This document shows positions 3,188 through 63,626 of a DNA stretch of 64,000 nt, piece after piece; the stretch's first letter is position 1, and every line of letters begins with the position of its first letter. The stretch spans positions 30,314 through 94,313 of the IMG/VR virus record IMGVR_UViG_3300031578_009495; one strand, 5' to 3'. The position numbers were made by a program, and so were the translations under genes. Source of the DNA: a virus. The notes under the pieces are model-generated. The model was not told the origin of the DNA, made no database searches, and saw nothing but the letters and a program-made list of their open reading frames with translations.

Positions 3188-3869
3188 GCCAATAACTTCA
3201 ATTATCATTTTATGCTGGAACAATCTTGAATATACCAAACTATGTATAGAGTCTATAATAAAACATACAAAGCAACCATATCAGATTATAGCAATAGACC
3301 AGGGCTCTACAGATGGGACATCCGATTATCTCATAAAAGCAACGAGGGAATGTAATTGTATTATTATCAAAAATGTAGAAAATAAAGGTTTTGCATGTGG
3401 GAATAATCAAGCATTAAAATTAGTAGAAAGTGAATATGTATTGATGTTGAACAATGATTGTGAAATAACAGATGATAATTGGTTAGAAATAATGATCAAT
3501 GCAAGTGGAACAGCTGATCTTATAGGGGCTGTCTGCAAACAGGTTGCACCGGACTCTATCACAAAAACGTTTAAATATATCGGCGATGGAAAAGAAAATG
3601 GCAGATGGAGTTATATAGAAGGATGGTGTTTGTTTGCTAAAAGAGACACATGGCTATCTCTTAATGGATTTGACGAAAAATTTAATCCGGCATTCAGTGA
3701 AGATGCAGACCTTTCTTTCAGGGCAAAGGGGCTTGGCATGAAGATTAAGGCTGTTTCTCTGCCCATTATTCATCATGGAAGCAAATCAATAGGACAAATC
3801 CATGGTGGCCATGAAGCGATGTCGGCTAAAAATAATAGATTATTGTATGGACAATGGATTGGAACATGA
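3180..3869 (+). CDS. GT2 family glycosyltransferase
   Basis: A GT-A fold enzyme of about 229 residues. It has the N-terminal strand SIIILCWNN, the QGSTDGT nucleotide-sugar loop, LMLNND as the metal-binding DxD equivalent and a later FSEDADLSFRA segment typical of rhamnosyltransferase-like GT2 proteins. The ATG at 3180 overlaps the end of the preceding fusion gene and has GGAA 7 nt upstream; an ATG at 3153 is also in frame. It is coupled by ATGA to the following HNH gene. It probably acts with the preceding fusion protein on the same glycan. Confidence 0.85.
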   Translation: MNKPITSIIILCWNNLEYTKLCIESIIKHTKQPYQIIAIDQGSTDGTSDYLIKATRECNCIIIKNVENKGFACGNNQALKLVESEYVLMLNNDCEITDDNWLEIMINASGTADLIGAVCKQVAPDSITKTFKYIGDGKENGRWSYIEGWCLFAKRDTWLSLNGFDEKFNPAFSEDADLSFRAKGLGMKIKAVSLPIIHHGSKSIGQIHGGHEAMSAKNNRLLYGQWIGT

Positions 3870-4747
3870 ATACGACTAAAGGATATTGCGAATGCGGATG
3901 TGGGAAGCTTACGTCTATGGCTACAAGGAATAATCGCAATAAAGGACTTAAAAAGGGCGAACCAGTCCGCTTTATTCATGGCCATAGCCATATATTTAAG
4001 AAAGGTGGTATCCCTTGGAATAAAGGGAAGAAAGGTGTAATCCCATCTTGGAATAAAGGTAAAAAAGGTGTAATTCCATCTTGGAATAAAGGGAAGACAA
4101 AAGAGACCGATAAAAGAATCATGGAGGCTTCAAAGAAAGTAAGCATTTCAGTAAAAAAATTATGGGAAAATCCAGACTATCAAGGTGGTAACAAAAAAGG
4201 AGTTAAGTTTAATCTGAGCGATGAACAAAGAAAGCAATATTCAGAAAGACTTAGCGGAGAAGGAAACCCTATGTATGGAATGTCGGGAGAGAAATCTCCT
4301 GTTTGGAAAGATGGTATATCTTTTCTGCCATATCCACCTGAATTTAACAATAAGTTAAGACATAAGATTAAAAAACGAGATGATTTTACATGTCAGTTGT
4401 GTGGAATAAAACAATATACTTATCAGGCAATTCATCATATTGATTATGAAAAAGACAACTGTAGTGAGTCAAATTTAATAACATTATGCCTGTCTTGCAA
4501 TGTAAAGGTGAATCAAAATAGAGATTTTTGGAAACAATATTTTACAGAGATAATAAATAAAGGGAGGATAGAATTATGGACGCGTACCCAAAATTCGGTA
4601 TCTACTACTAAAGGCGCCGAATTAAAACCTCTTCTGAATAACGGGAAGGTCTTAACATGTAAAGATGAAGATAACCCGAGGCAAGCCAAGGCAAATGCCT
4701 TGTTGCAGCCGCAGAGCACTGAGCGAAGAGGAACCTTAACAGGTTAA
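3866..4747 (+). CDS. HNH homing endonuclease with NUMOD3-type repeats
   Basis: A ~293-residue protein. It opens with a CxCGCG zinc-like motif, then has two or three IPSWNKGKK repeats (NUMOD3-like DNA-binding motifs) and an ERL-GEGNPMYG segment. A central HNH domain follows: RDDFTCQLCG, IHHIDY, NLITLCLSCN. These are hallmarks of free-standing homing endonucleases of phages. The start overlaps the previous stop (ATGA). The last ~55 codons read through exon 1 of the next gene and into its group I intron in another frame, so the true C-terminus may be shaped by that insertion. It lies just upstream of the intron-containing gene. Confidence 0.85.
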   Translation: MNTTKGYCECGCGKLTSMATRNNRNKGLKKGEPVRFIHGHSHIFKKGGIPWNKGKKGVIPSWNKGKKGVIPSWNKGKTKETDKRIMEASKKVSISVKKLWENPDYQGGNKKGVKFNLSDEQRKQYSERLSGEGNPMYGMSGEKSPVWKDGISFLPYPPEFNNKLRHKIKKRDDFTCQLCGIKQYTYQAIHHIDYEKDNCSESNLITLCLSCNVKVNQNRDFWKQYFTEIINKGRIELWTRTQNSVSTTKGAELKPLLNNGKVLTCKDEDNPRQAKANALLQPQSTERRGTLTG

Positions 4748-5557
4748 ACGACAGTCCGATCTGCATGGAAACATGTAGAGGTTGGCAGAAATGACCAACC
4801 CGGCTCTTAGAAAAGAGCAGGTAACAGAAAAATGGTCTTAGGAACCGTAGAAAGCGAGTCGCATTCATACGCGACCGAAGAATTGGAATATAGAGATGGT
4901 TTTAGCACGGATGTTTTCGATCTCAAGCATGTTGACACAATAACGAGATCAAACCCGAGCTCTTGTGCAGCAACATATGGAATTGGAAAATCTACTGATA
5001 TAACAAAAAACTCTTTGGAGGTCCCTCTTGAAACTGTAACTCTTGTGGAGGAAGAAGAAGTAACGGAACCACACATGAGAGCTGTTGATCCAGAGACAAG
5101 TCCAGAACTTGGAGACAAGTTAACATATACCGATGGCTTGATTTTCCATAGGAAAAAGCAAACGTTGACGATAAACGGAAAAGGCGATCCTCCTGTTGGA
5201 CTTGGGACTGCCGATAGAGGAAATACCTATAGTAGTAGCATTACTCTAAAACCAGCGGTTGGAGGATCTGTCGCCGACATAACAGAAGGATCTGGTTTTT
5301 ATTTACGGCGCGTAGAGATTACAAAGGCAAACACCGAATGGCAGAAATTTATGCTTGAACTTGTAAAATATGTGCCAAACACCGCGGATAATGCTCAAGT
5401 CAATATGATTACACCTGAGTTTTTTGGCGTAGATGCAGGAGACCTCACGGCAATAAGCGCATGGTATAAGCTTAGTCGAACCATTACGCTTAATGGCGAA
5501 GGCGCTGCAAATGTTGAAGAAACAGCAGAAATTTATGACGATGTTGCTGCGGCTTAG
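4576..5557 (+). CDS. Tail-tube-like structural protein, interrupted by a group I intron (exons 4576-4599 and 4835-5557)
   Basis: Exon 1 is an ATG at 4576 behind a strong ribosome site (GGGAGGA) and encodes MDAYPKFG. After removal of 4600-4834 it joins exon 2 in frame (VLGTVESES...), giving ~248 residues. Without splicing, exon 1 stops after 11 codons and exon 2 would start at an ATG (4832) lacking a good ribosome site. The position, just before a frameshifting tail assembly chaperone pair and the tape measure gene, is that of the major tail (tube) protein. No family motif is recognised, so the role is inferred from gene order. Confidence 0.7.
4600..4834 (+). ncRNA. Group I self-splicing intron (235 nt, no internal ORF)
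   Basis: The core can be folded by eye. P1 pairs exon end TTCGGT (4594-4599) with GCCGAA (4616-4621), leaving the expected U-G wobble at the 5' splice site. P10 pairs GTCTT after the 3' splice site with AAGGC. P3 is CCTCTTC with GAAGAGG. P4 is CGGG with CCCG. P6 contains AAGGCA/TGCCTT. P7 joins CACTG with CAGT of the ACAGTCC segment. P8 is AACCT-taac-AGGTT. P9 elements are CATG-gaaa-CATG, GTTGG/CCAAC and CTCTT/AAGAG. The intron ends in a G at 4834. The spliced frame is continuous, which independently supports the boundaries. Confidence 0.9.
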
Positions 5558-5565
5558 GTGATATT

Positions 5566-5844
5566 ATGTCCTACTCAAAAGTAATAGAACCGGCTATTAA
5601 AACAAGGCGCGTAAATGCAATGCCTCTTATAGGTGGTGCCGGTGTAATCCAGGAATTGGGATATATACAAAAAAAGACGCATAGATTTTTCTGGATTACA
5701 ACGGCAGAATTGCAGGCGGAAATAGATACTGAGGTTGCCTTAGGATGGGTTTTGGACGGAGATCCAAGCAGAACGCTTGTCCATGAAGCAATTCCTGATC
5801 TGTTTAATGCCGAGGCTACTTATTTTAGGTACAGCGCTACGTGA
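5566..5844 (+). CDS. Hypothetical protein in tail module
   Basis: A 92-residue soluble protein between the tail-tube-like gene and the tail assembly chaperone. No motif is recognised. A ribosome site (AGGTGAT) precedes the ATG. The stop overlaps a GTG that opens the next frame. By position it could be a small tail component or completion factor. Confidence 0.7.
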   Translation: MSYSKVIEPAIKTRRVNAMPLIGGAGVIQELGYIQKKTHRFFWITTAELQAEIDTEVALGWVLDGDPSRTLVHEAIPDLFNAEATYFRYSAT

Positions 5845-5864
5845 AATTAAAAGAAAGGAAATTT

Positions 5865-6503
5865 ATGCAGGCAGAAAAAATAGAGATACCAGATGAGCTC
5901 AGGATATTAAACCCAGAGTTACAAAAAAAACCAGTAGTAATAGGCACAGAAGCCTACATGATTTATCCGTTAACTGAAGGACAGGCCGAGCGTGTGTCTA
6001 AGCTTTTGTCTGATGTTATAATAGACATCACGACTTTGGATATGCAATGCCCTAATTGTAAACATGTATTCCAGAATATGCTTGGACGACAGGAAACCTG
6101 CAATAGATGTAGGGTAAAGGGGAAGGGTGGAAGTCAATTAAAAAGTATGCAAAAACCACCCGTAGAAGCATTGACATACGAAGACCGTGTTCCGAGATTA
6201 ATTGAAGAACTCGTTGGAATTAAAGTCACGGATGTAAAATCATCTTTGACCGTTAATCAGTGCAAACACATTGCAGGTGTTTTATATGTCCAGAACTTTA
6301 TGGAAGAAGAAGGCGGCGGCTTGCCGGAAGAATCAAAAAAAAACTTCAAAGCACTGCTGAATTGGATAAGTCCGGAGGAGAAAGAAAACACAGTAGTAGC
6401 CTCGGAGAAATCTATGAAGCCTTTGCCCATGAATATGGATTTACAAGAGAATATATCCAGGGAAGATGGGAGACAGGAGGAAGTAACGGAAGACGGCTTG
6501 TAG
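5865..6503 (+). CDS. Tail assembly chaperone, short (unshifted) form with zinc-ribbon
   Basis: About 212 residues, directly before a second overlapping frame and the tape measure gene, the usual place of lambda gpG-like chaperones. The ATG at 5865 is preferred because AAAGGAA lies upstream; a GTG at 5841 overlaps the previous stop. An unusual feature is a CPNCKHVF...CNRC zinc-ribbon at about residues 56-82. The C-terminal part is acidic. A slippery A AAA AAC lies in frame at 6338-6344 within the overlap with the next frame, which allows production of a longer fusion. Confidence 0.75.
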   Translation: MQAEKIEIPDELRILNPELQKKPVVIGTEAYMIYPLTEGQAERVSKLLSDVIIDITTLDMQCPNCKHVFQNMLGRQETCNRCRVKGKGGSQLKSMQKPPVEALTYEDRVPRLIEELVGIKVTDVKSSLTVNQCKHIAGVLYVQNFMEEEGGGLPEESKKNFKALLNWISPEEKENTVVASEKSMKPLPMNMDLQENISREDGRQEEVTEDGL

Positions 6504-23934: not shown

Positions 23935-24552
23935 ATGGTTAAAATAAATGCACCTTATGGAAGATTGACAGTAATAAAAGATGCTGGACGAACATCATAT
24001 GGACGTAGACAATTTGAATGTTTATGTTCATGTGGCAATACCATTATAGCTGAGTCATCAAATATAGAACGAGGTCATACTTCAAGTTGTGGATGTCTTA
24101 GAGACGAACTACAATTTAAACACGGCATGTCACAATCAAAAGAGTTTATGATTTGGGCTTCTATGCGTGCCAGATGCAATAATAAAAATAGTCAAAATTA
24201 TAAGTTTTACGGGGCACGTGGTATTAAGGTTTGCGGGCGATGGGATAAATCTTTTAAAGCATTTTATGAAGACATGGGTTCTAAGCCTGATGGGCATTCA
24301 ATTAATAGAGTAAATAATGATGGAAATTACGAACCTTCAAATTGTGAGTGGTCAACTGCAAAAAATCAAATGAATAATATGCAAGGGAATCATAATATAA
24401 CATTTAAGGGTATTACGAAAACCCTTACTGAATGGTCTGAAAAATTTGGCTTAAAATCTCCAACAGTAAGGCGAAGATTAAAAAAAGGATGGTCGGTAGC
24501 AAACGCTTTAACTATGCCATTGCGTCCAGGGAGGGCTTTAAAAAATGCCTGA
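23935..24552 (+). CDS. HNH-like homing endonuclease-type protein
   Basis: 205 residues. The N-terminal region (YGRLTVI, CLCSCGN, SSCGCLRDE) is a CxC...CGC zinc-binding segment. The middle carries the widely spread phage signature IWASMRARCNN, YGARGIKVCGRW, FYEDMGSKPDGHSINRVNNDGNYEPSNCEW, an HNH-like core. The C-terminus has a helix-turn-helix-like tail (LTEWSEKFGLKSPTVRRRLKKGW). Such genes behave as free-standing homing endonucleases. It sits between fibre genes with 2-8 bp spacing, as expected of a recent insertion. Confidence 0.7.
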   Translation: MVKINAPYGRLTVIKDAGRTSYGRRQFECLCSCGNTIIAESSNIERGHTSSCGCLRDELQFKHGMSQSKEFMIWASMRARCNNKNSQNYKFYGARGIKVCGRWDKSFKAFYEDMGSKPDGHSINRVNNDGNYEPSNCEWSTAKNQMNNMQGNHNITFKGITKTLTEWSEKFGLKSPTVRRRLKKGWSVANALTMPLRPGRALKNA

Positions 24553-27352: not shown

Positions 27353-27490
27353 CTGACATATTCCCACGGTTAAAACACGTGGGGTTCTAACATAGAACCA
27401 AAGTTTGTGGTTTTTAAACCACATCAGGCCGAGCTTTCTAACTCAGTCCGGCTTAAAGCCGAGGCATATCAGTGTGCCTCTTGAGATTGA
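27353..27490 (-). ncRNA. Predicted omega (reRNA) guide-scaffold region at tnpB 3' end
   Basis: In IS605-family elements the RNA overlapping the tnpB 3' end and right end guides TnpB. The same structured stretch is kept in the remnant at 15828-16019: GGTTTAAAAACC, TTGGTTC/GAACC and the terminal hairpin. Assignment follows the family, not a folding calculation. Confidence 0.55.
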
Positions 27491-28593
27491 GCGTTTAGCC
27501 CAACCTCAGCGATGTTCCGAGATGCGCCATAATCAGAATTGCACTGAAAATCACATTTCTTGCATCGGAAATTAGCTTGAGTTTGTCGATTAGAGCGAGA
27601 AGTGAAACCGCATTTATAGCACCGTCTCGACGTGTTTCTTGGGTCAACCAGCAACACCTCAATGCCAATACGTCTTGATTTATAAATTGTGAAATCAACC
27701 AATTGTTTAAAAGCCCAAGACGACATCATTCGATTAAATCGTTTGGATCCTCTTGCTCGTTCTCTAATGCCTTCAAGTTTCTCAAAACAAATAACAGGGT
27801 TGTCATATTGAGCAGCTATATCGACAATCTCTTTACTAATTTTATGGTTGGTATCAGTCATCCATCTTCGTTCATGGCCTCTCGACATTTTAACCTTGTC
27901 AATCCTGCCATGCTTCTGATACCTTTTACGGATATCAGCAAAATGTTCTCTTTTGTGCCTGATTTCTTTGCCATCAAATATCTTAACCATATCAGGCGTA
28001 GAAAGAGTTGCAATGCGGACTATTCCAAGGTCAATGCCGATAAAAGTTTTGTCACCGGAACGTCCGGCAGGCATTGTTTTGACTGGAAGCATTGCGTACC
28101 ACTGGCCATTGCGTTGAAAAAGCTTAGCGTCACCTTTAACAGATTTAATTCTATCTTTAAACTTTTCTGGCACACAAAGCGGAAGCCAAATATATTCACC
28201 ACGTTTCCCTGTAGAGCAGCGCAAGGCAACCCTGTTGTCAGTGGTCTCAATCGAATAAGCATTAACACCAAGTCCAATACCTTGACAACCATTAACCTTC
28301 GGAAATTGAGCATTCTTTTGTTTCTTTCTCAGTTGGAAAAAAGAACGAGCAAGAGAAACCGCAGCATTAACGCTCATTCTTGCATAGTCAGAAGGCAACC
28401 CAAGCTTGCGTGCAGGATAATAAGAAACATTATGTATCTTACCCCTGGAGCTGGTAGAAAGATCGTTTGCAGCATCAAGACCGAGTTGAACAGCATTAGA
28501 AAATATATTAGCCATATTCTCAAGCCATTCAGCTTTGTGTTTATTTGGTTTGATAATTTTAACTATGACGGCTTCTGTGTTTTGCATAATCAT
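27469..28593 (-). CDS. tnpB: TnpB RNA-guided nuclease (IS605 family)
   Basis: About 374 residues from an ATG at 28593 (a longer in-frame extension upstream lacks support). RuvC-like catalytic residues: Asp in IGIDLGIVRIA, Glu in CFEKLEG and Asp in NSDYGASRNIA. A zinc finger lies before the last motif (RRCYKCGF ... FRCKKCDFQC). The helical N-terminal half (MQNTEAVIVKII...NAVQLGLDAAN) fits IS200/IS605 TnpB. All key residues are present, so it is probably active. It is the only long - strand gene in the window, which marks it as a recent insertion into a + strand lysis operon. Confidence 0.9.
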   Translation of the reverse strand: MIMQNTEAVIVKIIKPNKHKAEWLENMANIFSNAVQLGLDAANDLSTSSRGKIHNVSYYPARKLGLPSDYARMSVNAAVSLARSFFQLRKKQKNAQFPKVNGCQGIGLGVNAYSIETTDNRVALRCSTGKRGEYIWLPLCVPEKFKDRIKSVKGDAKLFQRNGQWYAMLPVKTMPAGRSGDKTFIGIDLGIVRIATLSTPDMVKIFDGKEIRHKREHFADIRKRYQKHGRIDKVKMSRGHERRWMTDTNHKISKEIVDIAAQYDNPVICFEKLEGIRERARGSKRFNRMMSSWAFKQLVDFTIYKSRRIGIEVLLVDPRNTSRRCYKCGFTSRSNRQTQANFRCKKCDFQCNSDYGASRNIAEVGLNAQSQEAH

Positions 28594-28674
28594 ATTATAG
28601 TTACGTAAAACGCAGTTGTCAAGTAATTTTATTAATATTTTTTTAAAAAAAAAAGAAAGGGTGCCGATTCCTCC

Positions 28675-28695
28675 CACGACTGAAGTACGTGGGCT
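28675..28695 (+). repeat. IS605-type left-end hairpin, copy 1
   Basis: CCCACG-actgaagta-CGTGGG, part of the intact tnpB element. Related copies lie at 29644, 30074 and 37478, all in the same orientation. Confidence 0.7.
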
Positions 28696-31709: not shown

Positions 31710-31748
31710 TCATTAACTTTTATTAATTTGCTTGACAAGGGGGATAAA

Positions 31749-32348
31749 ATGAAATATATTGTAAGTAGAAAAGCGGCAGAAACATTAGGCGTGCATCCAA
31801 ATACTTTACGAAAATGGGCGAAAGAAGGTAAAATTGAATTTATCACAGCAGCTTCAGGACAGCGTAGATACAATGTCGATGGATATCTTGGGACGGCAAA
31901 ACAACTTGAGACAGTTTGTTATTGCCGAGTTTCCAGCTACAAGCAAAAAGACGATCTTGAACGACAGGTTGAGTTTATGTCCGAAAAATACCCTGACGCC
32001 AGAATCGTTAAAGATATCGGTTCAGGGCTTGGATTCAAAAGAAAAGGCCTTTTATCCATTTTGGAATCAGCATGCTCAGGAGATAGCATCTCACTTGTGG
32101 TTGCCTATAAAGACAGACTTGCAAGATGGGGATACGATATTATCAAATGGATTGTTGAACGCAGCGGTGGAAAAATCGTGGTTCTCAACAGAATTGAATT
32201 ATCCCCGGAGTCCGAGCTCACTAATGATTTGTTATCCATACTTCATGTCTTCTCATGCAGAATGCACGGACTTAGAAGCTACAAGCTCAAAATTGCTAAG
32301 GATTTCACCGACAAAGGAACAAAAAAAGATATTCAAAGCATGGACTGA
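31749..32348 (+). CDS. tnpA: IS607-family serine recombinase (TnpA)
   Basis: 199 residues from ATG 31749 (GGGGGAT upstream). The N-terminal MerR-like HTH (SRKAAETLGVHPNTLRKWAKEGKI, GQRRYNVDGYL) is followed by a small resolvase domain: CYCRVSSYKQKDDLERQ with the nucleophile Ser, GSGLGFKRKGL and VAYKDRLARWGYDII. This N-terminal DNA-binding/C-terminal catalytic order is diagnostic of IS607 transposases. Its 3' end overlaps tnpB in another frame. Confidence 0.9.
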   Translation: MKYIVSRKAAETLGVHPNTLRKWAKEGKIEFITAASGQRRYNVDGYLGTAKQLETVCYCRVSSYKQKDDLERQVEFMSEKYPDARIVKDIGSGLGFKRKGLLSILESACSGDSISLVVAYKDRLARWGYDIIKWIVERSGGKIVVLNRIELSPESELTNDLLSILHVFSCRMHGLRSYKLKIAKDFTDKGTKKDIQSMD

Positions 32349-33381
32349 TTGCAGCAGATATGTGTTTAATCAAACTTTTGATTATATCAGATCGTGTATA
32401 GGCTGGACACCGACATGGATGGATATTAAAAAAGACATGTTAAAACAGTTGCCTTTATGGTGCAAGCCCGTTCCGTTTCAGATTAAAGGCATCGCTGTTA
32501 AAGAAGCCTGTGATGCTTTTTGGAAAGCCAAAGGTGATCCTAAGTTTAGATCAAGAAAGAGTCCCGAGCAAAGTTGTTTTATCCCGAAAACAGCATTAAG
32601 TTTAAACGGTATTTATCCAAGGATATCAGGTAAAGGTTTATATTTCCAGGAAAAATTACCTGATGATCATAAAGACAGCCGGTTAATCTGGCGTTTTGAA
32701 AAGTGGTGGATGGCTGTTCCTTACAAAGAAAAACTATCTATCGGCGAGAACCAAGCCAAAATAGTTTCTCTTGACCCAGGGATTCGATCATTCATCACTT
32801 TTTATTCTCCTGAATATAGCGGGCATCTTGGCAAGGGAGATTTTAGCAGAATTCAGCGTTTGTGTTTTCATTTAGACAATCTTATTTCAAAAAGAGATTT
32901 AACTATCGGTAAACAAAAACGCAGATCGCTTACAAAAGCATCCAGGCGAATGCGTGCTAAAATCAAACATTTAATAGCAGAACTTCATCACAAAACAGCT
33001 AAATTCCTGACTGATAATTTTGACGTGATCTTGCTACCTACGTTTGAAACAAAGCGAATGACAAGCAAAATAGGCCGCAAGCTTCGCAAGAAAAGCGTTC
33101 GATCAATGCTGACTTTTTCGCATTATAAATTCAAACAATTTTTAAAGTGGAAAGCCTTTCAGACAGGAAAAACAGTTGTTGATTGTGATGAATCGTACAC
33201 CAGTAAAACACACCCGCAAACAGGCGAAATCAAGAATATTGGTTCAGCCAAGTGGATTAAGTTACTGGACGGGTCAAGAGCAGATAGGGATCAGGTAGGA
33301 GCGAGAAATATTCTGATTAAGTTTTTGTCAGAACATTTCTCTTTGGGAGATACCCCCATGCCAGAAATGGTGTGCAGTTAA
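32245..33381 (+). CDS. tnpB: TnpB of IS607-type element, zinc-finger cysteines lost
   Basis: About 378 residues. An ATG at 32245 (MSSHAEC...) is the latest reasonable start; the open frame upstream overlaps tnpA and is probably not coding. RuvC residues are present: Asp in VSLDPGIRSF, Glu in LLPTFETKR, Asp in DRDQVGARNI. The usual CxxC...CxxC finger between motifs II and III is replaced by SKTHPQTGEIKNIGSAKWIKLLDG, without cysteines. Some IS607-linked TnpBs are known to lack this finger. The 3' end is also the start of the predicted guide RNA. Confidence 0.85.
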   Translation: MSSHAECTDLEATSSKLLRISPTKEQKKIFKAWTDCSRYVFNQTFDYIRSCIGWTPTWMDIKKDMLKQLPLWCKPVPFQIKGIAVKEACDAFWKAKGDPKFRSRKSPEQSCFIPKTALSLNGIYPRISGKGLYFQEKLPDDHKDSRLIWRFEKWWMAVPYKEKLSIGENQAKIVSLDPGIRSFITFYSPEYSGHLGKGDFSRIQRLCFHLDNLISKRDLTIGKQKRRSLTKASRRMRAKIKHLIAELHHKTAKFLTDNFDVILLPTFETKRMTSKIGRKLRKKSVRSMLTFSHYKFKQFLKWKAFQTGKTVVDCDESYTSKTHPQTGEIKNIGSAKWIKLLDGSRADRDQVGARNILIKFLSEHFSLGDTPMPEMVCS

Positions 33382-35657: not shown

Positions 35658-36443
35658 ATGAAACATGAAATTAAGTTGATCTTTTGTGCGTGTGGATGTG
35701 GCGAAAAAATTCCGAACAGAGACAAGAACGGTGTGAAAAGGCGTTATGTGCATGGACATAATATGATAGTTAGCGCTGATAAGCGATTTTGGGCGAAGGT
35801 AAAGAAGTCTAAAGAAAAAAATGGGTGTTGGGAGTGGACTGGTTGCAAGTATAAGTCTGGAGCTGGCCAATTTCGCTATAACAGAAAAAATGTTTTGGCT
35901 CATAATTTTGTTTGGATGCTTAGGTGTGGAGAGATTCCTAAAGGAAAGCGTGTGATGCAGCAGTGTGGAAATAGGAGTTGTATTAGATCAGACCATCTCT
36001 TTTTGGAGAACGACGATTGGGAGACACGGTTTTGGAAATATGTGAAGAAATGTGAGAACGGGTGTTGGGAATGGAATGGACACAATAGAAACAGATATGG
36101 CTTGTTTGCACGGATAAGGGGTGTCACCGAATCTGCACATAGGATTATGTGGGAATTGAAAAATGGACCAATCCCTGAAGGCAAACAAGTATTGCATAAG
36201 TGTGATAACCCGCCATGTTGTCGCCCTGATCATTTATTCTTAGGAACGATAACAGACAATATGGCCGATATGGTAAAAAAGGGTAGACAGTATAAAAAGA
36301 TAGAAGATGAAGATGTCGTTGAAATAAGACAGAGATATGCTAAGGGAGGTATTTCACAAAGGAAATTAGGAGCAGAGTTCGGAATAAAGCAAATGCAAGT
36401 ATCAGGAATAGTAAGAAGAGTTCGGCGAAAAGGAGTATGTTAA
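35658..36443 (+). CDS. Tandem HNH_3-type homing endonuclease with C-terminal HTH
   Basis: 261 residues. An N-terminal CACGCGEKI zinc-like motif is followed by two HNH repeats: GCWEWTGC...RVMQQCGNRSCIRSDHLFL, then GCWEWNGH...QVLHKCDNPPCCRPDHLFLGT followed by NMADMVKKGR. The C-terminus (GGISQRKLGAEFGIKQMQVSGIVR) is an HTH of the type found on homing endonucleases. It is a free-standing homing gene. The stop overlaps the next start (TAATG). Confidence 0.85.
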   Translation: MKHEIKLIFCACGCGEKIPNRDKNGVKRRYVHGHNMIVSADKRFWAKVKKSKEKNGCWEWTGCKYKSGAGQFRYNRKNVLAHNFVWMLRCGEIPKGKRVMQQCGNRSCIRSDHLFLENDDWETRFWKYVKKCENGCWEWNGHNRNRYGLFARIRGVTESAHRIMWELKNGPIPEGKQVLHKCDNPPCCRPDHLFLGTITDNMADMVKKGRQYKKIEDEDVVEIRQRYAKGGISQRKLGAEFGIKQMQVSGIVRRVRRKGVC

Positions 36444-37533: not shown

Positions 37534-38127
37534 ATGCAACAAATGGATTGGACCGGAAATAAAAAGACAACATTTTCAACACTTGGCGCATCTTCCCATA
37601 GTGAACACGAAAGAGAAATTAATGATTATTATGCCACAGACCCGATTGCAATAAAGCCTTTGATAGAAAGAGTTAAATTAACTCAAACTATATGGGAATG
37701 TGCCTGCGGCGAGGGACATCTTTCAAGAGAATTAGAAGTATTCGGATATACAGTAATCTCAACGGATATTATTAATAGGGGGTACGGAAGTGTACTGGAT
37801 TTTCTAAAAGTAAAAGAAATCAAGCCTATTGATTATGATATAGTAACAAATCCACCGTATAAATTTGCAAAACAATTCATAGAAAAGGCTTTGGAAATAA
37901 GCAGAGAAGGCGGCAAGGTATGCATGTTTTTAAAACTCACATTTTTAGAGGGACAAGCAAGATATAATCTTTTTAAACAGAATCCACCAAAATATGTTTA
38001 TGTTTTTTCGAGACGAATTAGGTGTGGATTAAATGGAACTTTTAAAGGTTCTTCTGCCGTTTGTTTTTCTTGGTTCGTATGGGAAAAAGGAAATAAAGAT
38101 AAACCGACAATTGATTGGATTATATAG
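37534..38127 (+). CDS. DNA N6-adenine methyltransferase
   Basis: 197 residues. Motifs: DYYATDPIAIKPL at the start, SAM site WECACGEGHLSREL, acidic VISTDI, catalytic IVTNPPYKFAKQFIEKAL, then GGKVCMFLKLTFLEGQAR and SWFVWEKG at the end. This is the compact class of phage adenine methyltransferases lacking a large recognition domain. It may protect phage DNA from restriction. Ribosome site TAAGGAGCATAAA. Confidence 0.85.
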   Translation: MQQMDWTGNKKTTFSTLGASSHSEHEREINDYYATDPIAIKPLIERVKLTQTIWECACGEGHLSRELEVFGYTVISTDIINRGYGSVLDFLKVKEIKPIDYDIVTNPPYKFAKQFIEKALEISREGGKVCMFLKLTFLEGQARYNLFKQNPPKYVYVFSRRIRCGLNGTFKGSSAVCFSWFVWEKGNKDKPTIDWII

Positions 38128-38192
38128 AGATTCTTTGAGAAGCGAAAATAACATAAGCCATGAAAATAATTAGATAAACACGCCCTTTTCTA

Positions 38193-38221
38193 TTGACAAA
38201 TGTTTAAATATTTTATAGGAT
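38193..38221 (+). promoter_or_regulatory. Sigma70-type promoter
   Basis: TTGACA (38193-38198), 17 bp, TAGGAT (38216-38221), ahead of the HTH-helicase pair; ribosome site GCGGAGGC follows. Confidence 0.7.
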
Positions 38222-38250
38222 AAAATAAAAACACAAAGCGGAGGCAAAAA

Positions 38251-38463
38251 ATGTGGAACACACCATCTAAACAAACCCTATCCAAAATACCCTGCCTATA
38301 CAAGACAGAGGGAGTATCCCTGAAGGATAAACAGATACACCTTCTTAAAAAGATGAGTAAGCAGCAACTTGCTGATAGCTTTGGTATTTCGTATAGTCAC
38401 ACATCACAAATAATAAAGAATGAAAAATGGAATGAAAAGGATTATTCGATTGAATACTATTAA
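38251..38463 (+). CDS. Small helix-turn-helix protein
   Basis: 70 residues. The second half, HLLKKMSKQQLADSFGISYSHTSQIIKNEKW, is a clear HTH of the Trp-repressor/sigma-like type. Its 3' end overlaps the start of the helicase gene in another frame, so it may be a regulator or a DNA-targeting partner for the helicase. Transcribed from the promoter at 38193. Confidence 0.7.
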   Translation: MWNTPSKQTLSKIPCLYKTEGVSLKDKQIHLLKKMSKQQLADSFGISYSHTSQIIKNEKWNEKDYSIEYY

Positions 38464-41400
38464 GCTTGTTGATTTTCTGGATGAGTATCAAGACGAGATA
38501 GCCGATTCAATCATTCGCGACTACCCGCCTGTATATACGTTTAACGATAGAGAAAAATATGTTGATGATATAAAGAAACTGAAGCGCAAGCCATTCCTGT
38601 GCCAAATGGACGCAATAAGTGCCTTGGCAAAGCTATTTTCAACAGAGGCCTCCGGAATCTTGGTCGGGGAAATGGGCACAGGTAAATCATTGATTTCTAT
38701 AGCAATAGCCTATGTTTGTAAGTTTAAAAATGTACTTATTACAATGCCTCCACATTTGATATCGAAATATGAACGGGAAGTAATGATAACGATGCCGGAA
38801 GGTACCGCAAAGTGTCACCATCTTAAAAAGTTCACAGATGTTGATAAAGCAGTGGCATCGGCCAATGATGATCTGTATCACTTTTTCATTCTTGGCAGGG
38901 AGAGAGCAAAATTAAGCTATCAATGGAGACCGGCGTTTAATATAAAACAGAAAATTATTGAAATACCGGTAGCGGATAATGGAAATAGCCACATTGTTAA
39001 AAGAAAAGTAATATTGGTTTGCTGCCCAAGATGTGGGGAGTTAATATATGACAAGGAGGGAATACCGCTTGGGCCAGAGGATCTTACTAAAAAGAAGACG
39101 GTGTGCGCTAACTGTAACGAACAAATGTGGCAAGCCAAGCAGGATGGCCCGAGACGATTTGCAGTTGCAGAATATATCAAGCGAAAACATAAGAATTTTT
39201 TTGACTTACTTGTGCTTGATGAATGTTTTCCAGCTGGCATTAAAGTAAAGACTAAATATGGAGAAAAAAGCATAGAGGATATAAAAATAGGTGAATATGT
39301 ACTGTCTTTGGACGAAGATGGACTGGTTTATAAGAAAGTAGTTAGAGTCTTCAAGAAACTTGTCACTGGTCCTCTTGCGAATATTAAATATACTGATGGA
39401 AATCTGTTGTGTACAAAGAACCACAATATTTATACCAATCGAGGAAAGATAAGGGCTGGTCAAATACAGTCAGCTGATATCATTTGGCGCTTAGAGGAGT
39501 GTAATCATGAAGAAGTGTGCAAGGTGTGGAAAAACACTAAAGAAAGAGAATGCCAAATATTGTTCAAAGAAATGTTTTTCATTGGCAATAACACAGTATC
39601 CAAAAACGATAAAATGCAAGAGATGTGGGAAAAGCATGGTAGTTTATCGAGGGGGAAAAAGAAGCAAGAAATATTGTTCAGAAGAATGTCGACATTCCAA
39701 AAAAAGAAAATATCCATTTACAAGAGCATGCAAAGGGTGTGGCAAGGATATTTTAATAACATGCTCATCAAGACAAAAAAGACGTTTTTGCAATCCTTCC
39801 TGTTTGGTAAAATGGAGAATGCAGCATCCAGAGATGAGACCAAAAATAGTAATGACGGAAGAGCGAAAGCGAAAAATTGGAGAAAAGCAAAGGATTGCTC
39901 AGCAACGAAATCCGGAGTTGAGGAAAAACATATCAAAGAGAATGAAGCTAAACAACCCTATGAAACGACCAGAAATACGGAAAAAGGCTATCGAAGCGAT
40001 GAGAGGGATGCCTTTCCCTGTAGAAAGAGGAGGCCGCGGGAAGGGACCGACCGTCCCACAAGCATTATTGGAGACAATACTTGGGTGGCCGATGGAGGTT
40101 ACAATAAAGACAGGGAACAAAAAAATGCCATACTATTACAGTGCGGATTTGGCGGAAGAAACCTTGAAAATTGCAGTGGAGTGCGATGGGATTTCACACA
40201 AAATGTCAAAGGTGATTGCGCGGGACCGAAGAAAAGACGAGATTTTACGGAAACTTGGATGGGTTGTATTGAGATTCAAGAACAGAGAAATTATAGAAGA
40301 CACAAAGAGGGTAATTTTAGAAATAGAAGAGTGTGTCCTAAAGAGGTCATTGGAGTTGAAGAGGTCAAGATAGCGCAGGTATATGTATATAATATAGAGG
40401 TTGAAGAAACCCATAACTATTTTGCAGATGGAGTTCTTGTATCAAATTGTCACGAATATCGTGGTAGAAGTTCCGCACAAGGAATAAGTGCAGGCAATTT
40501 AGCCTCTGTTTGCAAACGATCTCTTGGTCTCTCGGGTACGATAGTGGGGGGTTATTCATCGAGTATTTTTCATTTATTGTACAGAATAACGAAAAGATTT
40601 AAAGATGACTATAAACACGATGGAGTAAATTCTTGGATTAGCGATTACGGAATACTTGAACAGATAACAAAGAAATCAGCAGACGATTATAGCGACAACT
40701 CACAAAGTAAGGGAAAAAAATACGTATCGGCTCCTAGAGAAAAACCAGGAATTTCCCCGGTAATTCTGCCAAAATATCTTTTAGACAAAACTGTATTCAT
40801 TCGACTAAGCGACATAGCAATAGACCTACCACCTCTTACAGAGGAAATTGTTGATATTGAAATGTCAGCGGAACAAGAAGATGCTTACAACAACCTATAC
40901 GATGATCTTAGAATTGTTTTACTTGCAGAATTACAACGTGGCAACAAATCGCTTCTCGCTGTATATCTTCAGGCGTTATTGACATATCCTGACAGGTGCA
41001 CCGTCGGGGAGTTTGTGTATAAAAAAACAGAAGGCGAAGAAGACCTGCTTATAGCATCGGCGCCGGCATTAAACGGTGACGTTTTATACCCAAAAGAACA
41101 GGCAATTATAGATCTGATCAAATCGGAAATGAAAGAAGGAAGAAAGGTTCTTGTGTTTTGTACCCATACCAACAGAAGAGACGTAACGGCACGACTGCAA
41201 GAAAAAATTCAATCTTTTGGAATAAGATCAGAAATATTAAAAGCAAATGTAGCTGCAGAAAAAAGAGAGGCATGGATTAAGGACCACGTAAACGATCTTG
41301 ATTGTCTTATTACCAATCCTGCCCTTGTGCAGACCGGACTTGACCTTGTAGAGTTCCCCACAGTGGCATATTGTCAGTCTGGATATTCTGTCTATACCCT

Positions 41401-41914
41401 GAGACAGTCGTCAAGGAGATCTTGGAGAATAGGCCAAGATAAGCCGGTTAACATATACTATTTTGTTTATAGAGCTACCATGCAGGAGCAAGCCCTGAAG
41501 TTAATGGCCCTTAAAATGAAAGCAAGCCTTATCATAGAGGGTGAACTTGGAGAGGACGGGCTTGCCACATATAATGTTGGAAATGATAATCTGTTCTACG
41601 AACTTGCCAGGAATATCGCAAATAACATCTCAATAGATGGAGACCTGGAAACTATCTGGAAAACTGCACAGAAAAAGAAAGTAGATGGAAGTGATTTGTT
41701 GATAGAGAAAACGGATATTGTGCCATCCCTTAACGACATTGTAGTGATTCCAGCAATAAAAATAGAGGAAAAGCATGAACTTTCCGCTTGGGATAAGCTG
41801 TATGTGGCCATGATGCAAGAACAGGAGAAGAAACAGGATATTATGAGAGAGCGTAGAGAGAAAAGAGAAAGATTAAGACCAGCGGACGCACATCAGCAAA
41901 TAGGATTGTTTTGA
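38420..41914 (+). CDS. SNF2-like SF2 helicase interrupted by an intein in motif II
   Basis: 1164-codon precursor; mature helicase ~756 residues after intein removal. Walker A: VGEMGTGKS (~residue 85). A zinc-ribbon CCPRCG...CANCN lies at ~195-235. Motif II reads LVLDE, then the intein, then C-H-E-Y (DECH box). Later come LSGT, an SF2 C-terminal domain (KVLVFCTHTNRRD) and motif VI QSSRRSWRIGQ. The first ATG at 38420 overlaps the HTH gene; a TTG at 38450 or ATG at 38432 is possible. It probably remodels or unwinds DNA together with the methyltransferase upstream; because the intein splits the catalytic box, splicing should be essential for activity. Confidence 0.88.
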   Translation: MKNGMKRIIRLNTIKLVDFLDEYQDEIADSIIRDYPPVYTFNDREKYVDDIKKLKRKPFLCQMDAISALAKLFSTEASGILVGEMGTGKSLISIAIAYVCKFKNVLITMPPHLISKYEREVMITMPEGTAKCHHLKKFTDVDKAVASANDDLYHFFILGRERAKLSYQWRPAFNIKQKIIEIPVADNGNSHIVKRKVILVCCPRCGELIYDKEGIPLGPEDLTKKKTVCANCNEQMWQAKQDGPRRFAVAEYIKRKHKNFFDLLVLDECFPAGIKVKTKYGEKSIEDIKIGEYVLSLDEDGLVYKKVVRVFKKLVTGPLANIKYTDGNLLCTKNHNIYTNRGKIRAGQIQSADIIWRLEECNHEEVCKVWKNTKERECQILFKEMFFIGNNTVSKNDKMQEMWEKHGSLSRGKKKQEILFRRMSTFQKKKISIYKSMQRVWQGYFNNMLIKTKKTFLQSFLFGKMENAASRDETKNSNDGRAKAKNWRKAKDCSATKSGVEEKHIKENEAKQPYETTRNTEKGYRSDERDAFPCRKRRPREGTDRPTSIIGDNTWVADGGYNKDREQKNAILLQCGFGGRNLENCSGVRWDFTQNVKGDCAGPKKRRDFTETWMGCIEIQEQRNYRRHKEGNFRNRRVCPKEVIGVEEVKIAQVYVYNIEVEETHNYFADGVLVSNCHEYRGRSSAQGISAGNLASVCKRSLGLSGTIVGGYSSSIFHLLYRITKRFKDDYKHDGVNSWISDYGILEQITKKSADDYSDNSQSKGKKYVSAPREKPGISPVILPKYLLDKTVFIRLSDIAIDLPPLTEEIVDIEMSAEQEDAYNNLYDDLRIVLLAELQRGNKSLLAVYLQALLTYPDRCTVGEFVYKKTEGEEDLLIASAPALNGDVLYPKEQAIIDLIKSEMKEGRKVLVFCTHTNRRDVTARLQEKIQSFGIRSEILKANVAAEKREAWIKDHVNDLDCLITNPALVQTGLDLVEFPTVAYCQSGYSVYTLRQSSRRSWRIGQDKPVNIYYFVYRATMQEQALKLMALKMKASLIIEGELGEDGLATYNVGNDNLFYELARNIANNISIDGDLETIWKTAQKKKVDGSDLLIEKTDIVPSLNDIVVIPAIKIEEKHELSAWDKLYVAMMQEQEKKQDIMRERREKRERLRPADAHQQIGLF
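39224..40447 (+). other. Intein (408 codons) containing an out-of-frame homing endonuclease gene
   Basis: N-terminal block A starts with Cys1 (CFPAGIKVKTKYGEKSIEDIKIGEYVLS). Block B has GNLLCTKNHNIYT with the conserved T-x-x-H. The C-terminus is VYVYNIEVEETHNYFADGVLVSN, with His-Asn and Cys as the +1 extein residue. Splicing domains thus total ~130 residues. The central ~290 codons in this frame are low-complexity basic/acidic sequence with no recognisable endonuclease, because the endonuclease is encoded in another frame at 39507-40373. The intein frame has no stop throughout. Confidence 0.88.
39507..40373 (+). CDS. Homing endonuclease (Zn-fingers, NUMOD3-like, Vsr/EDxHD-type nuclease) nested in the intein
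   Basis: 288 residues with its own ATG and ribosome site (TTAGAGGAGTGTAATC). Three CxxC...C-x3-4-C fingers fill residues ~1-105 (CARCGK, CKRCGK, CKGCGK). Basic NUMOD3-like repeats (ERKRKIGEKQR, NISKRMKLNNPMKRPEIRKK) follow. The C-terminal nuclease domain is AVECDGISH, ARDRRKDEILRKLGWVVLRFKNREI, the pattern of Vsr-like PD-(D/E)XK homing nucleases described with split inteins. It lies entirely inside the helicase/intein precursor gene, in a different frame, and its codons avoid creating stops in that frame. Confidence 0.85.
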   Translation: MKKCARCGKTLKKENAKYCSKKCFSLAITQYPKTIKCKRCGKSMVVYRGGKRSKKYCSEECRHSKKRKYPFTRACKGCGKDILITCSSRQKRRFCNPSCLVKWRMQHPEMRPKIVMTEERKRKIGEKQRIAQQRNPELRKNISKRMKLNNPMKRPEIRKKAIEAMRGMPFPVERGGRGKGPTVPQALLETILGWPMEVTIKTGNKKMPYYYSADLAEETLKIAVECDGISHKMSKVIARDRRKDEILRKLGWVVLRFKNREIIEDTKRVILEIEECVLKRSLELKRSR

Positions 41915-42234
41915 TGAATACAGCAAAAACAATAAAATATTTACGCAAACGGATACCCAAGTTTGAATGTAAAAAATCTTGTACAGATTGTTGTGGGCCG
42001 ATTGTGTTCTCAAAATGGGAGTGGGACCAAGTAGAAAACAAGAAGACAGCGACCTCGCTTGATTGTCCTTATGCAAGCGAAGCCGGATGTGAAATATACG
42101 AACAAAGACCGATCTTATGCAGATTATTTGGAACCGTTCCAAAGATGAAATGCAATCATGGACGCGGGCATGCCAAACTTCTATCTGCTAAGAAAGAGAA
42201 AGAAATAATGAGGAAATATTATGAGATCATGTAA
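41914..42234 (+). CDS. YkgJ-type cysteine cluster protein
   Basis: 106 residues, start coupled to the helicase stop (TGATG). The motif C-x3-C-x2-CC (CKKSCTDCC), then C-P...C-x-I-Y, RPILCRLFG and a final Cys-containing segment are the signature of the YkgJ/zinc- or iron-chelating family. The role is unknown; a metal cluster is probable. Last gene of the helicase operon. Confidence 0.8.
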   Translation: MNTAKTIKYLRKRIPKFECKKSCTDCCGPIVFSKWEWDQVENKKTATSLDCPYASEAGCEIYEQRPILCRLFGTVPKMKCNHGRGHAKLLSAKKEKEIMRKYYEIM

Positions 42235-42262
42235 AATAATTAAAAAACATTGCATTATTCCC

Positions 42263-42291
42263 TTGACAAATGTTTTTTTAATTATTATTAT
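42263..42291 (+). promoter_or_regulatory. Sigma70-type promoter
   Basis: TTGACA (42263-42268), 17 bp, TATTAT (42286-42291), preceded by CATTGCATTATT and followed by CTAATTAACAAAACAAATTAA. Nearly a copy of the promoter-leader at 29734. Confidence 0.75.
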
Positions 42292-42336
42292 CTAATTAAC
42301 AAAACAAATTAATCTTAAAAATGAAGGAGAGAGAAG

Positions 42337-61609: not shown

Positions 61610-62221
61610 ATGAATATGAAAAAGAAATGTTCAAAATGTGGAATTGAAAAAGAAGCTTCTGCCTTTCACAAAGACAAAAGGTGTAAGGATGGACTGTATT
61701 CCCACTGTAAAGAGTGTGCAAGGCAATACAATAGAGATTACGCCAAAAACAATAGAGAACGGCTTAAAGAACATCAACAAAAGTGGAGAGAACGAAACAA
61801 AGAAAAGATAAAAAGATGGAACATTGATTTCAAAGAAGCAAACAAAGACCTGATAGCAGATTACAACAGGGCTTACCAGTTAGAAAGATACCATAAAACC
61901 CCAAAGGTAAAAGTGCATAACAGTGTTGGGTGTTTGATTAGGGTTGCATTACACGGCAAGAAGGCTGGCAATAAACTGGAAGATTTATTGGGTTATACAA
62001 TTGAAGATTTAATGAGTCATCTTGAAAACCAGTTTGATGAAAACATGACATGGGAAAATTACGGAGATTATTGGCATATTGACCATATCAAACCACAAAG
62101 CTTGTTTGAATTTGAATCTGTTGAAGATGACGAGTTCAAGAAATGTTGGGCGTTGGAAAACCTTCAACCACTTTCAGCAAAAGAAAACCGGGAAAAGAGT
62201 AATAAATACCCTTATAAATAG
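61610..62221 (+). CDS. HNH endonuclease with N-terminal zinc ribbon
   Basis: 203 residues. The N-terminal zinc ribbon (CSKCGIEKEASAFHKDKRCKDGLYSHCKEC) is followed by a basic helix rich in Arg and Lys. The C-terminal HNH-type domain is YWHIDHIKPQSLFEFESVEDDEFKKCWALENLQPLSAKENREKSNK. This is a well-known homing-type arrangement in phages. The start may be ATG 61616 if the mRNA is leaderless. It stands alone between phage operons, as free-standing homing genes do. Confidence 0.85.
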   Translation: MNMKKKCSKCGIEKEASAFHKDKRCKDGLYSHCKECARQYNRDYAKNNRERLKEHQQKWRERNKEKIKRWNIDFKEANKDLIADYNRAYQLERYHKTPKVKVHNSVGCLIRVALHGKKAGNKLEDLLGYTIEDLMSHLENQFDENMTWENYGDYWHIDHIKPQSLFEFESVEDDEFKKCWALENLQPLSAKENREKSNKYPYK

Positions 62222-63035: not shown

Positions 63036-63626
63036 ATGTCTAAAACAATATCAGAAGAACAAAGAAAAAAGATAAGTGAATCTATGAAAGGTCGTAAATT
63101 ATCAGAAGAGCATAAGTCAAAACTTCGTGAATCTATGAAGGGTGTGAATACTTGGGCAAAAGGTAGGACGGTTAGTGAAGAGACAAAGAGCAAACTAAGC
63201 AAAATAAGAAAAGGGAAAAATAGAAAACCTTTTTCTGCCGAAACCAAAGAAAAAATGAGACAAGCTAAACTTCAAAATCCAACTAACTATTGGAAAGGCA
63301 AGAAAAGACCACCACACACAGAGGAAACCAAAGAAAAAATGAGAGAAGCCGCTTTTGAATATGCAAAGAATGTGTGTGATATTATTTGCCCAAGAATAGG
63401 TAGAAACGAAAAATCCATTTTAGATGCAGTTGAGACTGGAATGAAAGTTAAGATTTTAAGGCAATACAAATGTCTTGGGTATTTTATAGATGGTTATATT
63501 CCAGAAATGAAAATTGCAATAGAAGTTGACGAGAAACCCAAAACATCTCAAAAGGATATTGAACGGGAGTCTATTCTTGCTGAAAAACTTGGTTGTAGAT
63601 TTATCAGGATTAAAGACTATGATTAA
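63036..63626 (+). CDS. NUMOD3 / Vsr-like homing endonuclease
   Basis: 196 residues. The N-terminal half has four or five NUMOD3-like repeats (SEEQRKKISESMKGRKLSEEHKSKL..., SAETKEKMRQAKLQNP). The C-terminal half is a PD-(D/E)XK-type nuclease: GRNEKSILDAVE, GYFIDGYIPEMKIAIEVDEKPK, RESILAEKLGCRFIRIKD. It shares its architecture with the endonuclease nested in the intein, without the zinc fingers. Its stop overlaps the IS607-type recombinase start. Confidence 0.8.
   Translation: MSKTISEEQRKKISESMKGRKLSEEHKSKLRESMKGVNTWAKGRTVSEETKSKLSKIRKGKNRKPFSAETKEKMRQAKLQNPTNYWKGKKRPPHTEETKEKMREAAFEYAKNVCDIICPRIGRNEKSILDAVETGMKVKILRQYKCLGYFIDGYIPEMKIAIEVDEKPKTSQKDIERESILAEKLGCRFIRIKDYD

Follow-up and report, generated by a model that had tools for sequence, protein, structure and literature searches.

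A phage intein with a homing endonuclease gene overprinted in the +1 frame, and its recurrence in other phages

The locus analyzed here raises the question of how a single segment of DNA, inserted in the catalytic motif of a viral helicase gene, can remain open in two reading frames, one with the features of an intein and the other with those of a homing endonuclease, and whether both frames are indeed coding. The window (the whole 64,000-nucleotide stretch analyzed) is part of a 94,313-base virus record from IMG/VR; all features described below are on the + strand unless otherwise indicated.

The interrupted helicase gene and its two open reading frames

An SNF2/SF2-type helicase ORF of 1164 aa, interrupted by an intein and without internal stops, was found at 38420-41914, with matches to Helicase_C (E=3e-7), SNF2-rel_dom (E=4e-6) and the DNA helicase family phrog_62 (E=3e-37). 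Its exteins (38420-39223 and 40448-41914) flank an intein of 408 codons in the helicase frame, from Cys at 39224 to Asn at 40447, with boundaries placed from blocks A and F/G and from an alignment with relatives. The insertion point was DE^CH of Walker B, with the C-extein resuming as CHEY, so that both the intein and the split DECH box lie where the initial annotation had placed them. Homologues of this helicase lacking the insert were identified (L126-L128), and a search of viral contigs with the C-extein of the window helicase retrieved no relative.

The insert alone matched the Pfam model Intein_splicing above the family cut-off and with full length covered (E=2.5e-10), as well as TIGR01443 (intein_Cterm, E=2.8e-8). 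The N-terminal HINT half (39224-39496, intein residues 1-91) starts with Cys1 at 39224, includes block B TKNH (39413-39424, with Thr64 and His67) and was modeled with pLDDT values of about 95-97. It is followed by a linker (39497-40243, residues 92-340) for which mostly low-confidence structure was obtained (pLDDT mostly 39-70, and below 50 for residues 202-322), and then by a strand at residues 341-352 (pLDDT about 94) and by blocks F and G (40382-40447, residues 387-408, pLDDT 94-97), where the C-terminal splicing region ends in VSN, followed by Cys+1 of the C-extein. The two halves were predicted with high confidence to form a HINT fold, and the best PDB matches of the intein model were an intein-like domain, a hedgehog autoprocessing domain and inteins including gp41-1 and RecA (probability 1.00).

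Cys1, the block-B His67 and the terminal Asn408 were invariant across the inteins of 43 relatives, and the C-extein +1 residue was Cys in the window and in nearly all relatives; in two loci (L042 and L051) the C-extein begins with Ser instead. The usual penultimate His of block G was absent in the window, where Ser407 is found (VSN), while the inteins of the relatives end in VHN in most cases and in VSN in a large subset. A penultimate His is usual but not universal, being missing from some active inteins. In four loci (L106, L112, L018 and L131) the helicase that bears the DE^C-site intein has an additional intein at its Walker A (GK/T) site.

The homing endonuclease ORF is located within the intein in the +1 frame (39507-40373, 288 codons), with its own ATG and TAG, and is preceded by a Shine-Dalgarno sequence GAGGAG (39494-39499) situated 7 nt 5' of the ATG (pairing energy -8.8 kcal/mol), in agreement with the 288-residue product and separate start initially proposed. 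Its approximate layout comprises CxxC zinc-finger-like units (residues ~4-99), a helical middle part (~100-165) and a Vsr-like nuclease domain (~183-275). The C-terminal domain matched DUF559 (E=4e-12), and the best PDB match of the AlphaFold model (pLDDT 87.8) was I-Bth0305I (3R3P; probability 1.00, TM-score 0.76 by target length, E=0.019); a sequence search of solved structures gave one weak plausible match (3hrl) and many chance matches to antibodies. Residues D214, E225, D227, H231, D240 and K243 were invariant in 59 endonuclease relatives and, by analogy, represent a putative catalytic core of the acidic/His type. Of the domain composition first suggested (Zn-finger/NUMOD3/Vsr-like), the Vsr-like part was supported by DUF559 and by the I-Bth0305I fold, and the zinc-finger part by conserved CxxC pairs and weak MYND-type matches, but for the NUMOD3 part no Pfam match was obtained in the window endonuclease, the corresponding region being predicted as helical.

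Codon constraints and selection on the two frames

Long open second frames are possible in Lys/Arg-rich genes, and an arrangement in which only one frame is real, the other being open by chance or as a by-product of composition, was therefore weighed against codon usage. In the endonuclease gene, T was found at the third position before AA, AG or GA, the only context in which the intein frame can acquire a stop, in none of 106 cases, compared to 49 of 181 at other codons (Fisher p=1.2e-11), as had been noted by inspection. The proposed opening of the intein frame over ~290 codons was evident as well: no intein-frame stop was observed across the endonuclease, while 200,000 codon shuffles, in which codons were permuted among positions of the same amino acid so that protein and codon set were kept, contained a mean of 15.0 stops and a minimum of 4, and never zero. 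The third frame over the same region had 28 stops. Zero stops were reached in up to about 4% of shuffles for some GC-rich relatives; over 91 loci, however, the host frame had 0 stops against 796 expected from shuffling, whereas six control relatives, either in frame (L002 and L003) or free-standing (L004, L090, L095 and L099), showed 132 stops against 134 expected. With selection also visible in both frames (see below), it is exceedingly unlikely that the second open frame is accidental. Neither of the two objections anticipated by the initial annotation held, since shuffled versions of the window gene were never open in the second frame, and a frame-changing sequencing or assembly error was ruled out by independently sequenced phage isolates with the same arrangement and by the separate start and stop of each ORF. 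There is thus strong support for an intein in which a homing endonuclease gene lies out of frame and is kept open by selection.

Substitutions between the endonucleases of two related loci (L010 and L011) were concentrated at third codon positions (5, 1 and 35 at first, second and third positions), and overlap identity between close relatives was generally higher for the endonuclease than for the host frame. These comparisons place the endonuclease frame under purifying selection in the relatives: along most of the overlap the constraint falls on the endonuclease protein, and all that is required of the intein frame is to remain open.

The host frame was analyzed in 80 loci against sequences in which the endonuclease protein was kept and its codons were redrawn avoiding host-frame stops. 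Conservation beyond expectation (z below -3) was found in 26 of the 142 usable columns, 21 of them at the 3' end, the remainder being five isolated columns upstream of this cluster, with almost no excess host-frame conservation across the linker, whose frame stays open solely through stop avoidance in the endonuclease codons. The signal comprised two segments of the endonuclease, residues 250-258 (z to -24) and residues 264-280 (z to -18). In the first, the LGWxVLRFxN core is read as V-R-V-D-S-V-E-I-L by the intein frame, and in the second the overlap enters intein block F; these z values overstate significance because the null treats the loci as independent, and it is the position of the signal that matters. 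In the window, the first of these regions corresponds to a dual-coding stretch (40244-40279) in which the splicing strand of intein residues 341-352 lies over the endonuclease core GWVVLRF (residues 251-257). Together with the confident prediction of residues 341-352 and 387-408 in the intein model, this 3' conservation shows that both frames are selected and that the 3' end is dual-coding, the overlap being in that part more than passive.

A property of the genetic code bears on the choice of offset. With the +1 offset, each host-frame stop requires a T at the third position; since NNC is synonymous with NNT in all cases, T can always be replaced silently by C and any protein fits this offset. 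In the other offset, Met before an obligate A-starting codon always gives TGA, and such a pair was present in 95 of 99 endonucleases. This rule would account for the occurrence of the +1 arrangement only; another possible reason, compatible with the former, is common ancestry combined with a locked 3' overlap.

Distribution, allelic states and putative mobility

A tblastn search with the endonuclease retrieved 40 phage records, in all of which the match lay within a gene annotated as helicase, ATPase or unnamed protein. Regions from eight of these records were translated, together with a related helicase bearing a mini-intein (L018); in all eight endonuclease-bearing regions the endonuclease was in +1 within one continuous helicase ORF, with the intein at DE|CH. 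The same nested +1 layout was shown by phage isolates of Vibrio, Pseudomonas and Corynebacterium, and in the isolate records examined the annotation covered only the helicase. An alignment-based scan of IMG/VR that ignored frame resulted in 80 viral loci (including some near-duplicates and a few repeats of earlier loci), of which 77 had the endonuclease in +1 inside a stop-free host ORF, with intein blocks in nearly all of them and typically about 10 to 30 stops in the third frame. Profile models of the intein halves matched the host frame on both sides of the endonuclease in 89 loci.

Contigs of bacterial genomes yielded seven more nested cases, among which L112 has the element in a homologue of the window helicase; a nested case (L107) also occurs in the genome of Ktedonobacter racemifer, a cultured bacterium, with the apparent start of a further intein downstream in the helicase. 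The targets were mostly the DE|CH or DE|C sites of helicases, but also the equivalent site in clamp-loader-like genes (DE|CHxLS) and in terminase-like genes (L069 and L093), the names other than helicase being a reading of the flanking sequence. In L037 and L070 the endonuclease ORF overruns the end of the intein into C-extein coding sequence, with stops 11 and 18 codons beyond, respectively.

The possibility that this arrangement represents an evolutionary intermediate, as first put forward, was not supported, because it is both diverse and conserved: 77 of the 80 loci recovered irrespective of frame were nested, the window endonuclease shared 29-41% identity with the others of its family, several target genes were occupied, and the offset was always +1. 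Since nesting recurs in dozens of diverse phages, it resembles instead a class of selfish element that is well established but mostly missing from annotations, and a stable architecture, recurrent among phages rather than a one-off, is the best reading of these data.

Empty sites, mini-inteins and occupied alleles at the same site were all found when relatives with and without the insert were compared, as the initial annotation had suggested. The helicases of Vibrio phages K391 and 234P10 were 98.9% identical, with a 1068-bp element in the former and an uninterrupted GATGAG|TGTCAC in the latter, while K389 and PS65A.1 carried a mini-intein without endonuclease at the site occupied in K391. Free-standing relatives of the endonuclease were found adjoining a helicase in L099 and a terminase-like gene in L095, and in the endonuclease tree the free-standing members fell among the nested ones, most deep branches being weakly supported. 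In L090, a free-standing relative (3833-4516) overlaps the start of an intein-free DECH helicase (4416-6122), with stops in its other frames. In three loci (L002, L003 and L122) the same type of endonuclease is in frame with the intein of a head-morphogenesis-like protein, a natural in-frame counterpart of the nested layout.

Proposed expression of the two products and comparison with known systems

The locus is very probably a mobile cis-splicing intein with a homing endonuclease gene overprinted on it in the +1 frame, rather than carried as an in-frame domain. Ribosomes starting at the helicase ATG would produce a precursor with a largely unstructured linker of ~250 aa between its two splicing halves (residues 1-91 and about 341-408); judging from its intact catalytic residues and predicted fold, the intein would then excise and restore the DECH helicase, a reaction that the long disordered linker could slow. 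Ribosomes entering at the internal Shine-Dalgarno and ATG, located where the endonuclease domain of an intein is usually found, would produce a free Zn-finger/Vsr-like endonuclease, so that two separate products, spliced helicase and free endonuclease, may be expected from the same DNA. The endonuclease would cut the conserved Walker B coding sequence of intein-free genes and the element would spread by repair, consistent with the empty and occupied alleles described above. The +1 code rule and the 3' overlap, where the endonuclease core and the splicing strand lie on shared DNA, would together explain the exclusive use of this offset.

The endonuclease could also be reached by a programmed frameshift into +1 after the N-terminal splicing half, which would yield a fusion of helicase-N, intein-N and endonuclease and would require no internal start. 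Some loci lack a good Shine-Dalgarno sequence, and at some loci the endonuclease frame is already open far 5' of the match. Across the family, however, the Shine-Dalgarno was stronger than in a matched control (median -6.6 vs -4.8 kcal/mol, p=0.001), an advantage absent at some loci and considered modest, since the enrichment first seen shrank under that control. Moreover, in the window and many relatives the endonuclease frame has a stop just before the ATG preceded by a Shine-Dalgarno, at a distance of 12 nt in the window and of 0-3 nt in L012, L022, L023, L065 and L073, which leaves little room for a shift and makes frameshifting unlikely. Even less probable is an insert without splicing, in which the out-of-frame endonuclease gene does no more than occupy the helicase, whose protein would cope with the insert or become non-functional, as has been suggested for the ShiLan insert (PMC11855218). 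The penultimate Ser of the window intein and its long linker with low predicted structure are compatible with such an insert, but it is at odds with the invariance of Cys1, the block-B His and the terminal Asn in the 43 relatives, with the position of the insert within the catalytic DECH box, with the HINT fold predicted at high confidence, and with the host frame being under selection at the C-terminal splicing strand and in block F. A group I or group II intron was ruled out, as an Rfam search of positions 38000-42300 gave no match up to E=1 and the host frame is open and selected. A split or fractured gene was likewise discarded, the host ORF being continuous in the window and in its nested relatives.

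Fractured genes, as reportedly described by Dassa et al. in 2009, consist of gene halves with split inteins, between which lies a free-standing Vsr-like (EDxHD) endonuclease of the I-Bth0305I family. The overprinted intein shares with them the same endonuclease fold (3R3P) beside intein halves in phage genes, and differs in that the window host gene is one continuous ORF, whose splicing would occur in cis, and in that the endonuclease overlaps the intein rather than separating two genes. Canonical mobile inteins, such as PI-SceI and TliVMA, carry an in-frame homing endonuclease domain (PMC8966425); HINT halves, endonuclease coding sequence between blocks B and F, a conserved insertion site and presence/absence among relatives are common to both, whereas in the window a separate +1 ORF, started and terminated independently, encodes the endonuclease, which is Vsr-like instead of LAGLIDADG.

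The ShiLan insert includes an HNH enzyme in the third frame with a GTG start, with neither a splicing domain nor a Shine-Dalgarno detectable (PMC11855218). It is similar to the present case in that the insert leaves the host frame open and hides its endonuclease in a different one, in its disjunct distribution and in being unannotated, and different in that the window has a full intein flanking a +1 Vsr-like gene with a Shine-Dalgarno. Also comparable is a brucellaphage whose large terminase gene contains, in another frame, a 'putative intein-encoded' HNH gene (PMC4422536), an out-of-frame endonuclease gene in an essential phage gene that the authors link to inteins; it differs in being an HNH gene in a terminase and, in the description compared here, in having no splicing blocks reported. 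In collaborative homing, a free-standing endonuclease lies beside an intron-bearing gene (PMC10448857), a situation resembling that of the free-standing relatives beside intein-free helicase or terminase-like genes (L090, L095 and L099), but unlike the nested form, where endonuclease and splicing element are on the same DNA.

Precedents for out-of-frame HNH genes are a phage methylase gene, without an intein, and the brucellaphage terminase gene. The intein and the endonuclease each belong to known families, and it is the overprinting inside an intein that differs from the canonical, fractured-gene and ShiLan types. Judging from its title, a preprint dealing with non-canonical intein architectures in actinobacteriophages would be the likeliest prior description and may include the present layout. 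On balance, these elements probably constitute a distinct, widespread and previously undescribed class of phage mobile intein, in which the endonuclease is obligately overprinted in +1, the intein is frame-locked by the dual-coding strand, and insertion is directed to Walker B in several genes for NTPases (helicases, clamp-loader-like genes and terminase). In addition to in-frame fusion and gene splitting, they would represent a third way of combining an intein with a homing endonuclease in one gene, in a layout that escapes normal annotation. The system provides a natural, replicated example of two-frame selection on one DNA, whose offset can be explained by a simple rule, the synonymous change of third-position T to C. 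Related phages differ in state (empty, mini-intein, nested or free-standing), which makes the gain, loss or freeing of intein endonucleases testable.

Several other ORFs of mobile type were recognized by eye in the window. The phage appears rich in look-alikes of HNH-type homing endonucleases (3854-4747, 23935-24552, 35658-36443 and 61610-62221), and two TnpB-like ORFs were noted at 27469-28677 (- strand) and 31728-33381, the latter overlapping a serine-resolvase-like ORF in an IS607-type layout. A free-standing ORF at 63036-63626 resembles a second endonuclease with NUMOD3 repeats and a Vsr-like domain (IAIEVDE core).
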